A stretch of 64,000 nt of DNA. Origin: Gemmatimonadaceae bacterium. Lineage in GTDB: Bacteria; Gemmatimonadota; Gemmatimonadetes; Gemmatimonadales; Gemmatimonadaceae. The translations under genes were made by a program, and so were the position numbers. Positions 23,890 to 54,408 of the stretch are shown here, one piece after another. Each line of letters starts with the position of its first letter. Positions within the stretch are counted from its first letter, which is position 1. The notes under the pieces were generated by a model, which searched no databases, was not told where the DNA came from, and was given only the letters and a program-made list of their open reading frames with translations. The stretch lies in contig JADLCY010000001.1 in assembly GCA_020846935.1 (NCBI GenBank), positions 1-64,000 on the forward strand. The letters are read 5' to 3'.

Positions 23890-24522
23890 ATGATCAAGCT
23901 CATCATCTTTGCCGTCCTCGGTCTGGCTGTCGGTCTCGGCGGCGGCGCCGCGGCGTCGGTCATGAAGGCGCGCAAGGCGTTCGGTGCATGGGAGGCCGCC
24001 CGCGCACAAGTCGTCGCCGACTCCATCCTGAAGGCCGCCGAACACGAGGCGAGCGATGTCGTCGTCACCGCGGGTCACGGTGACTCTGCAGCGACGGACA
24101 GCGCGGGCTCTCACGCGGCAGCGCCGGCGCCTTCACCAGCGCCTGAGCCATCCTCAAAGACGAAGCACGCCGCTCCGTCCGCGCCGGCGTCGCATGCACC
24201 CGAGCCCTCGGCCAGGACTCCGACCTCCAAGGCCGTCGAGACGGTGGTCTCCGGTGGCGCGACCGCGCGTCCAAAGCCGATTCCCGTTCCCCCAGGGCCC
24301 GTCGACGTTGCTGCGAACGTGTTGACCGAGAAGGTGTCGCGGATCTTTGGTGCGATGCCGGCCAAGGACGCAGCGCGGGTCCTCGAACAACTCGAAGACG
24401 CCGACGTGAAGGCGATTCTCACCGGACTCTCGGACAAGCAGGCGGCAGGCATCATGCAGCACCTGCCAGCCAACCGGGCGGCCGCGATCAGCAAGCTCGT
24501 CCTGCGCGGAGGTGCCAGGTGA
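23890..24522 (+). CDS. MotE-like / MgtE N-domain protein
   Basis: A 210-residue membrane-anchored protein: one N-terminal membrane helix ([21 protein letters not shown]), a long Ala/Pro/Ser-rich linker (~60-135), and a C-terminal MgtE intracellular-type domain (VSRIFGAMPAKDAARVLEQL, then SDKQAAGIMQHLPANRAAAISKL). Proteins with this plan lie between fliJ and fliK in many bacteria; in alphaproteobacteria the equivalent MotE acts as a chaperone of the periplasmic motor protein MotC. Here the domain would face the periplasm if the N-terminus is inside. The exact role is inferred. Confidence 0.8.
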   Translation: MIKLIIFAVLGLAVGLGGGAAASVMKARKAFGAWEAARAQVVADSILKAAEHEASDVVVTAGHGDSAATDSAGSHAAAPAPSPAPEPSSKTKHAAPSAPASHAPEPSARTPTSKAVETVVSGGATARPKPIPVPPGPVDVAANVLTEKVSRIFGAMPAKDAARVLEQLEDADVKAILTGLSDKQAAGIMQHLPANRAAAISKLVLRGGAR

Positions 24523-26831
24523 CGATGCCCATCGTTCCACAGATCGTGACGCCCGAGACGGCGTCACACGACAACGCGTCGCCGTCGTCCACCGATCCCA
24601 GCACGGCCGCGACCGAGTTCCGTGCGGCGCTGGCCACGGCACTCGGTGAGCCGCGCGCGACGGGCCGCCGTCAACGCTCGGCCAAGGCCGCAGAAGGCGG
24701 AGAGGAAGGCCGTCGCTCGTCAGGCAGGGCCGCGCCTCCGGGCTCGCGATCGCTGAGCGCCACGCCCTCCGCTGCGGGGAGCCCAGCGGAGTCCGGCGCG
24801 CGGGATGCGCTCGCGATGGCGCAGGGCAGCATGACACCCCTGCCTGCCGCTGCGTCCGATCGACCTGGTCTCGCGGCCGAGGGATCGGGCGCCGAACCGG
24901 GGATCGTGAACGCTGATACCGGCGGTGTGCGGCACGCAGGGCGCCAGACGGTGCGCGAGCGCGCCGCATCACTCGCCGAAGAGGGCGGGTCGTCATCCGA
25001 AGTTCGGGTTGCTGGCGACGCCGAGTCCGCCGAGCCCGCGCCGGGCGTGCCGGAATTCAGTCCGATCGATCTCCTGACCTTCCTTGTACCGGGCGCTGCG
25101 GTCGCACCTGCCAACAGGAGGTCTGCAGCCGGAGGCGCGCATGACGCGCTCGACTCCGGTGGGGCGGCGAGCATCGAGGGAGACGCGGGAGCCGGTGAGC
25201 CGACACGTGTGACGTCGGCGCGCGACGTCACGCCGGCGCCAACGCCAACGGTCGGCTCGCCCCTCGATCCGCGACGCATTCCCTCGATCGGTGCGTTGCT
25301 GCCGGAAGCTGGCGAGGTGCGCGAACCCACACGCGGCGAGCATCGACTGCTCCCTGAGTTCGGCGATCGACTGGGCCGCGTGATCGAGCGGATGCAGCGC
25401 GAGTTCGGGTACACGATCGAAGTCGTGGAGACCGTGCGCACGCAGGAGCGCCAGGACGCGCTCTTTGCCCAGGGCCGCACGCGCCCCGGGCCCGTCGTCA
25501 CGTGGACGCGCAGCTCCAATCACACACAGGGACTCGCGGCCGACGTGACGGTGAATGGCGGATGGACCGATCGTGCGGGCTTCGAGCGTCTTGCGCGCAT
25601 TGCGCGCGAAGAAGGGCTGCGCACGCTGTGGCCTCGCGATCCGGGGCACATCGAGCTGGTCACGCCGGCGACGGGTGATGAACGCGTCGCACACACGGGC
25701 GTGGCGCGAACACGGGGCGCGCGCGGCGAAGCGCTCATGGTGCCGCGGCCCGCGTCGCCCGTCGCCGCAGAAGTCGTGGCCGTGCCCGCATCGACCGACG
25801 GCGCTGTGATCCTCCCGCACGCGCCGCACGACGAAGGCGAGGCGCGCATCCTGCCGTTCACGCCACCTCGTGCGGTCGAGCCTCGGCATGGGCGTGACTC
25901 GCAGCCTGCGGCCGGGTCATCGCCGGAAGGCGGCCCCCGACTCGCCACGGTGGCGCGCGTGGCCGACGTCGCACGCGTGGCGGAAGTCGCACGTGTGGCC
26001 GAGGTGACGCGCGTCGCGGCCAGCGCCGGGGCGACCGCGCCCGTCGTCGACGCCGCGGCTCCGACGCCCCCGCACGAGCGTCGCACTGTCGCCGCGGCCA
26101 CGAATACTCCAGCGATTGAAAGCAGCTCGGCTGGCAGGGTGGCGCCGTCGATCGAGCCGGTGATGGCTGGCGCCGGACGCGAGCCTGGGCGAGGCGGCGC
26201 GGACAGGGAGCGGCGCGACGGTCGCGAGGGACAGCGCGCGGCGATCGATGCCATTCGCGAGGCTGACTCGGCGCTGCTGCGCGCCGCGATGGGAGGGGAG
26301 ACAACCGGGGACCGCCGCGGCAGTGAGGCCACCGCACCGGTGGCCGGCATGGAACGGACGGACGCGGCCGAGCGCATTGCGCGCGTGCTGCGCGTGCAGG
26401 AGTCGATGGCGGAGCGGCCGATGTCGTCGGTGCTCCTGCGGCTCGACCATCCGGAAGGCGGCGAAGACCGCATCCGGGTGGACCTGCGCGGCTCGACGGT
26501 GGGTGCGACGCTCGACATCCGGGATGCGGCAGCCGCCGACAACCTGCGTGCGCATGCCTCGGAACTGCAGGCGCAGCTGGGACGGCATGGACTGGACGGG
26601 GAGGCGATCGCGGTCCGCACGATGACGCGTGGCAGTGAGTCCGCGCTCAACGTGGCGGGCGCCGCGGCCGCCGAGCGCGAAGGGATTCGTGCGGGGCAAT
26701 CAGGGAACACGGGCAACAGTGGCACGAACCAGGGGTCGCGTGACCCCCGCGCCCCGTGGCGCGAGGACGCGCAGTCCCGACAGGACCAACCGCCGTCGCG
26801 CCAGAAGCGCGACCAGAGGGGGCAACGCTGA
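24519..26831 (+). CDS. fliK: FliK hook-length control protein with an embedded M15-type peptidase domain
   Basis: A 770-residue protein, about twice the usual FliK. Residues 1-270 and ~385-630 are Ala/Pro/Thr-rich linkers, as expected for a molecular ruler; ~455-500 includes a short tandem VARVAEVARVAEVTRVA repeat. Residues ~635-710 (SSVLLRLDHPEGGEDRIRVDL, then LRAHASELQAQLGRHGLDGE) are the C-terminal Flg_hook domain that signals FlhB to switch substrate. Inserted at ~274-385 is an M15/VanY-like fold with the zinc signature SNHTQGLAAD (H335, D342) and DPGHIEL (H377), the motif of D-Ala-D-Ala carboxypeptidases and endolysins. The operon position before flgD supports FliK. Confidence 0.9.
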   Translation: MTMPIVPQIVTPETASHDNASPSSTDPSTAATEFRAALATALGEPRATGRRQRSAKAAEGGEEGRRSSGRAAPPGSRSLSATPSAAGSPAESGARDALAMAQGSMTPLPAAASDRPGLAAEGSGAEPGIVNADTGGVRHAGRQTVRERAASLAEEGGSSSEVRVAGDAESAEPAPGVPEFSPIDLLTFLVPGAAVAPANRRSAAGGAHDALDSGGAASIEGDAGAGEPTRVTSARDVTPAPTPTVGSPLDPRRIPSIGALLPEAGEVREPTRGEHRLLPEFGDRLGRVIERMQREFGYTIEVVETVRTQERQDALFAQGRTRPGPVVTWTRSSNHTQGLAADVTVNGGWTDRAGFERLARIAREEGLRTLWPRDPGHIELVTPATGDERVAHTGVARTRGARGEALMVPRPASPVAAEVVAVPASTDGAVILPHAPHDEGEARILPFTPPRAVEPRHGRDSQPAAGSSPEGGPRLATVARVADVARVAEVARVAEVTRVAASAGATAPVVDAAAPTPPHERRTVAAATNTPAIESSSAGRVAPSIEPVMAGAGREPGRGGADRERRDGREGQRAAIDAIREADSALLRAAMGGETTGDRRGSEATAPVAGMERTDAAERIARVLRVQESMAERPMSSVLLRLDHPEGGEDRIRVDLRGSTVGATLDIRDAAAADNLRAHASELQAQLGRHGLDGEAIAVRTMTRGSESALNVAGAAAAEREGIRAGQSGNTGNSGTNQGSRDPRAPWREDAQSRQDQPPSRQKRDQRGQR

Positions 26832-27526
26832 TGACCAGTCCGGTGAACTCCACCTCGCTCGCAGGGCAGCTCGTCAACCAGGCGAATGCCGGCGGGCCCG
26901 CAGGTGGCAAGATGGGGAAGAACGAGTTCCTCAAGCTGCTCACGACGCAGCTGCGTTACCAGGATCCGCTGGACCCGATGGACGGCAAGGACATGGCGGC
27001 CGACCTCGCCCAGTTCTCCGGCCTGGAGCAGCTGCTGAACATCAACGAGCAGCTGGAGGCGCAGCAGGGGCAGTATGACGCGCTCGCCCTGACCGTCGCC
27101 AACGGGCAGGCGATGAACACGATCGGCAAGACGGTGATGGTGGCCGGGGACAAGGTGCTGCTCGCGAAGGACGCGAACGGCGACATGGTGGGGTCGGTGA
27201 CGGCGGACATCACCACGCAGGGCAACGCGACGCTGAAGTTGTATGACAAGTCCGGCAAGGAGGTCGGATCGCGGTCGTTAGGCTACCTGGGGACTGGACA
27301 GCAGACCTTCGACATCGGCGCGGCCGCGGCGAAGGTGGGCGTGGAAGGCGCCTATGCGTACAGGATCACGGTGGTCGACGCGGCCAGCGGCAAGGACGTG
27401 CCGCAGAAGACGTACACCGTCGGGAAGATCGACGGCATCTCCTACGGCGAGGACGGCAAGGCGGCGCTGACGATGGGCCCGCTCACGATCGAGTTCGCAG
27501 CGATCGTCCGCATCCTCTCCACCTGA
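26831..27526 (+). CDS. flgD: FlgD, hook cap / hook assembly scaffold
   Basis: A 231-residue protein. The N-terminal KNEFLKLLTTQLRYQDPLDP plus FSGLEQLLNINEQL is the FlgD signature; residues ~90-220 form the Ig/Tudor-like part. FlgD caps the growing hook and is then discarded. Its ATG overlaps the fliK stop codon (TGATG). A longer frame upstream overlaps fliK and is not used. Confidence 0.95.
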   Translation: MTSPVNSTSLAGQLVNQANAGGPAGGKMGKNEFLKLLTTQLRYQDPLDPMDGKDMAADLAQFSGLEQLLNINEQLEAQQGQYDALALTVANGQAMNTIGKTVMVAGDKVLLAKDANGDMVGSVTADITTQGNATLKLYDKSGKEVGSRSLGYLGTGQQTFDIGAAAAKVGVEGAYAYRITVVDAASGKDVPQKTYTVGKIDGISYGEDGKAALTMGPLTIEFAAIVRILST

Positions 27527-53036: not shown

Positions 53037-54106
53037 CGCACCCCGCCCCCCTCCGTTCCCCCCTCCGCATCGCGCTGGCCATCGGGCTGGCGCACGCGGC
53101 GTTTTGTGTCGATGCGGCCCGGGCCCAGGCCGTCCCCATCCGTGACCTCGTCGTCGACCATCAGGCGGTGCCGGTAAGGCTCGTCGGATACGGCATCGTC
53201 ACCGGCCTCTCCGGTACGGGCGACAATGCCTTCGCCGGCCGCGGGTCGCAACACACCGTGCAGAGTGTCGCGAACCTCCTGCGCCGCTTTGACATCATCG
53301 TCCCGCCGGAACTGCTGCGCACGCGGAATGTCGCGGCGGTGCTCGTCACCGCCGAGGCCTCGCCGTATCTGAGGCCGGGCGGACGGTTCGACGTGCAGGT
53401 GAGCTCGGTCGGCGATGCGCGATCGCTGCGTGGTGGCGTCCTGTGGATGACGCCGCTCGTCGCCGAAGCCGGCGGCAAGGCGATGGCGACCGCACAGGGC
53501 GAACTGCTCGTCGATGACACCGACGTCGCACGCCGACGCGTCGGCTTCGCCGCGGCGAGCGCAAAGCTCGCCAACGGTGGCCTGCTCGAAGTGGACCTGC
53601 CACGCCCGCAGTTCACGGCGTCGAGCACGCTCATCCTGCGCCAACCCGACATCGGCGTCGCCGCACGCATGGCCGCCGTGATCGACTCGGTGATGGGCAA
53701 AGAGACCGCCAGGGTTGAAGACCCGGGCGCGGTCACCTTGACCCTCGGCGACAGCGCCGGTGGACCGGCCGCGGCGCTCGCACGCATCCGTGACCTCAAG
53801 GTCGAGATTCAGCGCGTCGCGCGCATCGTGATCGACCAGCGCTCCGGGACCGTCGTCGCCGGCGGCGACCTCACGCTGGGGCCCGGGATGGTTTCCGTGG
53901 GAGGCCTCGCGCTCTCGATCGGTGCAGCCTCCGCCGATACTTCGACGCAGGGGCCGCCAGGTCAGGTCCGCGTGCCGACCGGTGCGACGGTCCAGCAGCT
54001 GGCTGCCGCGCTGCACGCCGTGAGAACACCACCGCAACAGGTGGCGCTCGTCTTCGAAGCCCTGCGCAACGTCGGGGCGCTCTCCGCTGAGGTGATTGCC
54101 CGATGA
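53033..54106 (+). CDS. flgI: FlgI, P-ring protein
   Basis: A 357-residue exported protein (signal peptide ending DAARAQA). Conserved LVGYGIVTGLSGTGDN, RNVAAVLVTAEASPYLRPGGRFDVQVSSVGDARSLRGG and the C-terminal QLAAALHAVRTPPQQVALVFEALRNVGAL match FlgI. It polymerises around the distal rod in the peptidoglycan layer. GTG start overlaps the flgH stop. Some residues of the last third are diverged. Confidence 0.95.
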   Translation: MTHPAPLRSPLRIALAIGLAHAAFCVDAARAQAVPIRDLVVDHQAVPVRLVGYGIVTGLSGTGDNAFAGRGSQHTVQSVANLLRRFDIIVPPELLRTRNVAAVLVTAEASPYLRPGGRFDVQVSSVGDARSLRGGVLWMTPLVAEAGGKAMATAQGELLVDDTDVARRRVGFAAASAKLANGGLLEVDLPRPQFTASSTLILRQPDIGVAARMAAVIDSVMGKETARVEDPGAVTLTLGDSAGGPAAALARIRDLKVEIQRVARIVIDQRSGTVVAGGDLTLGPGMVSVGGLALSIGAASADTSTQGPPGQVRVPTGATVQQLAAALHAVRTPPQQVALVFEALRNVGALSAEVIAR

Positions 54107-54408
54107 ACCCGATTGGCAGGGACGCAGGGCCCATCACGCCCGCGGGTGACGATCGCCGCCTGCGCGAGGCCGCGCGCGCACTCGAGGGCGTGTTCGTGGC
54201 GCAGTTGTTCAAGGCCATGCGCGAGACCGTTCCGCAGGACGGCGCGCTCTCGGGCGGCGCCGGCGAAGAGATGTTCAGCAGCATGCTCGATGAGCGCATG
54301 GCCGACCTCGTGCCGACGCAATGGAACAGCGACCTCGGTGACGCGCTCCTCAGGCAGTTCCGCACCCGCCTCGCCCCGACCCAGGGCGCCGACCCGTCCG
54401 CACCGTGA
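54103..54408 (+). CDS. flgJ: FlgJ-type rod-binding protein without hydrolase domain
   Basis: A 101-residue protein equal to the N-terminal rod-binding domain of FlgJ: REAARALEGVFVAQLFKAMRET, then SGGAGEEMFSSMLDERMADLV and LGDALLRQFRTRL. The C-terminal peptidoglycan hydrolase domain of enterobacterial FlgJ (~313 residues in total) is absent, and no lysozyme-like gene follows. It would cap the growing rod; cell-wall cutting must be done by something else, possibly the M15 domain in FliK. Confidence 0.9.
   Translation: MNPIGRDAGPITPAGDDRRLREAARALEGVFVAQLFKAMRETVPQDGALSGGAGEEMFSSMLDERMADLVPTQWNSDLGDALLRQFRTRLAPTQGADPSAP

Follow-up and report, generated by a model that had tools for sequence, protein, structure and literature searches.

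The window analyzed here is a stretch of 64,000 nt from contig JADLCY010000001.1 of a Gemmatimonadaceae bacterium, and all coordinates are positions within it. The fliK gene (24519..26831, + strand) was assigned from its open reading frame, a Pfam match to the Flg_hook domain and its gene neighbors. The frame begins with a GTG start codon and is maintained throughout 770 codons. As in relatives, fliI, fliJ and a MotE-like gene are located upstream, and flgD and flgE downstream. This position among fliI/fliJ and flgD/flgE, which characterizes the FliK family, was observed in the window and, within contig reach, at 73 named Gemmatimonadota loci. The hook cap gene flgD lies directly 3′ of fliK (26831..27526, +; PF03963, E 9.1e-21). 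The gene between fliJ and fliK (23890-24522) encodes a product with an MgtE_N-like C-terminus, and a gene of a similar kind occupies the same place in several of the relatives that were read.

The predicted FliK protein (770 aa) contains two folded islands, at residues ~271-383 and ~613-712, amid disordered linkers; 488 of the 770 residues had pLDDT values <50 in the full-length model. The second island includes the Flg_hook export-switch domain (residues 629-702; 26403..26624, +), which was matched by PF02120 with an E-value of 3.9e-6, although the score of 27.0 bits is below the cut-off of 29.8. A C-terminal Flg_hook domain following an embedded peptidase, as proposed in a preliminary description of this DNA, is therefore present. 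The first island is an M15/LAS zinc peptidase domain (residues 271-383; 25329..25667, +). No second wall-binding domain was evident in the full-length model or the Pfam scan. A (V-A-x) triplet repeat is located downstream of the M15 domain (residues 475-501; 25941..26021, +). The repeat comprises 4-11 units in 39 of 49 complete FliK-M15 proteins, compared with a rate of 1e-4 expected from shuffling, was absent from all four FliK proteins checked that do not have an intact M15 domain, and was predicted without confidence in structural models. The Salmonella protein (405 aa) consists of ruler domain, linker and switch domain without an enzyme (PMC6972891). The protein described here shares with it the C-terminal Flg_hook switch, disordered linkers and gene location between fliI/fliJ and flgD, but differs in its longer linkers and in the M15 peptidase at its middle. 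From family membership, we infer that it is also exported and acts as ruler and switch. The combined architecture is not a frame error or chimeric assembly, as it recurs in at least 84 genomes and at 73 named loci, two sets that partly overlap.

The M15 assignment was based on phmmer matches (2vo9 and 6akv), AF2 modeling, Foldseek and PHROG comparisons, all of which agreed with the preliminary proposal. In a phmmer search of the PDB, FliK residues 280-404 matched the phage L-Ala-D-Glu peptidases Ply500 (5.8e-7) and LysB4 (6.7e-7), and the isolated domain matched a PHROG endolysin family at 3.5e-19. An AF2 model of the domain built with 28 relatives had a pLDDT of 88.7 and a pTM of 0.81, and Foldseek aligned this model with Ply500 (4.1e-7, TMq 0.76). 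The proteins matched were Ply500, LysB4, LysECD7, ChiX, VanXY, LdcB, VanX and VanY, and all 15 Foldseek matches with E ≤ 0.001 were M15/LAS peptidases. The Pfam scan of whole FliK gave a weak match to Peptidase_M15_3 (E 0.049), and the domain scored below the curated Pfam cut-offs (PF08291, 18.5 vs. 23.2 bits; VanY, 15.6 vs. 25) and also below cut-off in NCBIfam; these cut-offs are model thresholds, not defining biochemical features. Current annotation misses FliK-M15 because the domain falls under them. In sequence and modeled structure the domain appears nearest to the M15C L-Ala-D-Glu endopeptidases, VanY and VanX relatives also match, and the predicted specificity is uncertain. The likeness to Ply500 and LysB4 comprises the fold (TMq 0.76-0.77), the H-x6-D ... 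D-x-x-H motif, and the R..Q, QGR and SxH..G.A.D blocks. In contrast to these endolysins, the FliK domain is ~113 aa with shorter loops, is not accompanied by a cell-wall-binding domain and resides inside a flagellar export substrate. The possibility of a prophage remnant or a free phage lysis gene was rejected: the domain is in frame inside fliK, has flagellar neighbors and is conserved in several families. The resemblance to phage endolysins is confined to the M15 domain and does not extend to gene context.

The zinc site is complete. The motif SSNHTQGLAADV, which holds H335 and D342, and the motif RDPGHIEL, which holds D374 and H377, are positioned as the preliminary description placed them. 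Together they provide the H-x6-D pair, the second histidine and the acid three residues before it (DxxH) that are characteristic of M15/LAS enzymes. These residues align with Ply500 and with His68, Asp75, Asp120 and His123 of ChiX; H335 (25521..25523, +) coincides with the histidine of the Ply500/LysB4 SNH motif, and the presumed catalytic acid D374 (25638..25640, +) with Ply500 Asp130 and ChiX Asp120, the latter being required for activity (PMC5778951). The remaining zinc ligands are encoded at 25542..25544 (D342) and 25647..25649 (H377), both on the + strand. All four residues were invariant in a set of 28 sequences (this FliK and 27 relatives of family f1), along with R..RQ, GR, VTWT and GH.E blocks; as this set was drawn from a whole-protein search it is less biased than the contig pattern scan. 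Among the 73 named loci from that scan, H335 was present in 72, and D342, D374 and H377 in all 73, counts that lean toward conserved members because the patterns contained the conserved motifs RQ..QGR or TL..DxGH. All four residues are likewise retained by FliK proteins from class-level families f4-f7. Thus, conservation of the zinc ligands in relatives, which the preliminary description had named as a test, was confirmed, and an inactivated domain can be rejected for this FliK. One locus of the scan (L171:514-3576), the FliK-M15 gene of a metagenome-assembled genome labeled Planctomycetota, has its M15 domain divided between two reading frames; mistakes in binning or assembly may account for both the taxon label and the break.

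Purifying selection on the M15 domain is strong. Six closely related same-genus pairs with intact domains were compared, and in five of them dN/dS was 0.07-0.17 for M15 vs. 0.43-0.59 for the remainder of FliK. As the values come from the Nei-Gojobori method and dS was frequently close to or >1, the contrast within a pair is more informative than the absolute numbers. The sixth pair was nearly identical and had zero amino acid changes in M15. One flagellated member of f1, G030, has an inactivated domain: M15 is recognizable at 36.7 bits, but all four active-site residues are lost. This natural loss of the active site (L034:4833-6551) is accompanied by retention of Flg_hook and of the flagellar gene neighbors. 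The dN/dS value for G030 M15 against its congener G056 was 0.71, revealing that purifying selection is gone. The erosion in G030 and the low dN/dS elsewhere therefore show that the domain can decay and that, where it has not, selection on its residues maintains it. The same data bear on the idea that folded M15 serves the ruler only as a spacer or brake, its enzymatic activity being a relic. A folded block could conceivably slow export, and hedgehog domains are known LAS-group members used in signaling (PMC4102407). However, the zinc ligands and catalytic acid are invariant or nearly so, and the sole case of ligand loss is also the case in which purifying selection was lost. A purely structural insert is accordingly extremely improbable.

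The distribution of FliK-M15 follows that of flagellar genes. FliF is encoded by 106 of 395 genomes of the phylum, and 84 of these 106 gave a strong FliK-M15 match. All the positive genomes belong to five families in which 89 genomes possess FliF: f1 (70/73), f4 (2/2), f5 (10/11), f6 (1/1) and f7 (1/2). Apart from the eroded domain in G030, the misses in f1, f5 and f7 are contigs that end near or before fliK: those of G362, G212 and G226 end before the gene, G046 retains only the FliK C-terminal part at a contig edge, and the G031 contig is cut. FliK-M15 was found in 0/10 FliF-positive genomes of f2, 0/1 of f9 and 0/6 of f11; FliK itself was not located in f9 and f11. FliK of f2 was read in four genomes, one of them partially, the other f2 contigs being cut, and M15 was absent from the readable proteins (G075, G332, G079 and part of G078), which have Flg_hook-type ends. 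FliK-M15 is restricted to genomes with flagellar genes, save for G004, the only strong match without FliF, which is a fragmented assembly that is 82% complete. A poorly resolved tree of the M15 domain (113 columns) set FliK-M15 apart from free-standing M15 proteins of Bacillota; two free M15 proteins from f6, both on long branches, fell inside FliK-M15, possibly as an artifact. In the collection scan, the nearest relatives beyond this phylum were the Bacillota proteins (L175-L181; ~180-230 aa), which have the same R..RQ, VTWT and S.H blocks.

The flgJ gene (54103..54408, +) encodes a protein of 101 aa that matched the Rod-binding domain (PF10135, 1.6e-10) and nothing else. FlgJ consists of the Rod-binding part alone, as the preliminary description had it, and is not of the dual-domain type in which this part is fused to a hydrolase. 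The same bare FlgJ was encoded at all 30 f1/f2 loci read and at the f4-f7 loci read. In f11, the outgroup and sister class, the FlgJ proteins of all six genomes (L195, L196 and L198-L201) combine Rod-binding with an SLT lytic transglycosylase domain (SLT E 1e-29 to 1e-31). The survey therefore identified sampled FliK-M15 lineages without a FlgJ hydrolase, a FlgJ-SLT class without FliK-M15, and f2 without either; strict one-to-one complementarity between FliK-M15 and a FlgJ hydrolase is ruled out by f2. A single-domain FlgJ is by itself little proof, and the contrast between f11 and the FliK-M15 lineages carries more weight. Elsewhere, single-domain FlgJ proteins occur widely, with SLT partners that are separate proteins (PMC8517470). 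SltF of Rhodobacter and LTase-Bb of Borrelia are examples in which another enzyme solves the problem posed by single-domain FlgJ; in contrast to FliK-M15, these are separate, FlgJ-interacting lytic transglycosylases that are not fused to FliK (PMC8517470).

No other wall hydrolase gene was found in the flagellar cluster of this organism. Three general SLT genes lie elsewhere in the genome, outside the window (two neighbors on contig C10 and one on C2); no glucosaminidase match was found in the genome. In a rival account, the wall might be opened by general lytic transglycosylases that bare FlgJ brings in, leaving FliK-M15 as a useful but dispensable trimmer that, for example, widens the hole or cuts peptides around the P-ring or hook. 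Such recruitment has precedent in the pairing of single-domain FlgJ with a separate SLT (PMC8517470), SLT is present in nearly all relatives, and both the f2 flagellar genes with neither enzyme and the eroded M15 of G030 fit a dispensable role. However, SLT number is not raised with flagella: f1 had 93 SLT genes in 30 FliF-positive genomes vs. 107 in 28 genomes without FliF, and no SLT was seen near flagellar genes. Because FliF-positive f1 genomes are not richer in SLT genes, no flagellum-specific SLT is visible, and the proposal that one of the three SLTs in this genome has such a role was set aside. Moreover, M15 is conserved more strongly than the rest of FliK. An auxiliary trimmer is therefore an unlikely, although not far-fetched, account.

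The reading that we favor, with moderate confidence, is that FliK combines the hook-length ruler and export switch with a peptidoglycan endopeptidase delivered to the periplasm that lets the rod through the wall; the activity, the bond cut, the timing and a need in motility are elements that we infer. From rod growth onward, unfolded FliK would leave the cell intermittently via the flagellar type III exporter. Copies exported before the rod crosses the outer membrane would enter the periplasm at the tip of the rod, and their M15 domain would then fold, bind zinc and cut stem peptides beside the growing rod, most likely at L-Ala-D-Glu. This local cutting would allow the rod to pass the wall, and FliK-M15 would do the job of the FlgJ hydrolase domain of other phyla and of the sister class. 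Salmonella FliK is secreted through rod and hook assembly, and a FliK-β-lactamase fusion gets to the Salmonella periplasm as an active enzyme (PMC13344023); a natural FliK enzyme fusion could therefore arrive there in active form. ChiX of Serratia marcescens, a Gram-negative M15/LAS zinc L-Ala-D-Glu peptidase with the same DxxH aspartate, demonstrates that secretion can make use of cleavage of this kind, but it is free-standing, tied to chitinase secretion and not fused to a flagellar protein (PMC5778951).

Delivery by FliK is supported by the M15 fold, the complete zinc and catalytic set, the presence of the domain in 84 of 106 FliF-positive genomes, the dN/dS contrast and the pattern of FlgJ-SLT vs. 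FliK-M15. Set against it are f2, which has FliF and FlgJ, yet no M15 in readable FliK proteins and no FlgJ hydrolase; G030, which kept FliK but lost every M15 ligand; and the three general SLTs of the genome, which could open the wall. FliK is also known chiefly for its work in hook growth, by which time the wall has been crossed, and this too counts against delivery. A different destination can be envisaged, in which FliK escapes into the medium once the hook has crossed the outer membrane and attacks neighboring cells or shed wall. Release of Salmonella FliK to the medium has been reported (PMC6972891) and phage endolysins are the closest match to the domain, but the absence of a second wall-binding domain from the model and Pfam scan, together with the retention of FliK-M15 alongside flagella in many genera of several families, renders an exolysin very unlikely. 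FliK export probably also brings a predicted wall cutter for passage of the flagellum.

Dual-domain FlgJ proteins, with glucosaminidase or SLT domains, are likewise type III exported and proposed to open the wall for the rod, but they cut glycan strands from the rod cap, whereas FliK-M15 would be a peptide cutter on the ruler. Wall opening may tentatively be viewed as having moved, in the ancestor of one class of Gemmatimonadota, from the FlgJ-SLT rod cap to the FliK-M15 ruler, with a change from glycan to peptide cleavage and with wall opening, length control and export switching united in FliK. The preliminary description had raised this relocation in simpler form; the FlgJ-SLT of f11 and the bare FlgJ of FliK-M15 lineages fit it, and f2, G030, single-domain FlgJ elsewhere and the SLT genes of this genome leave it short of proof.

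Searches of the open-access literature gave no title or abstract describing a FliK with an M15 peptidase, consistent with the preliminary statement that no FliK of this build is known to have been described. The ruler and the enzyme family are both known; their combination, and probably the role, are undescribed. In flagellated bacteria the rod has to pass the wall, and those flagellar wall enzymes that were found described (the FlgJ domain, SltF and LTase-Bb) all cut glycan strands. If the delivery reading is correct, wall passage would be solved in another way, by a ruler that cuts peptides, and the secreted ruler would gain a second, catalytic task. It would also explain how flagella could be built by bacteria whose FlgJ is bare and in which no transglycosylase dedicated to the flagellum is visible.
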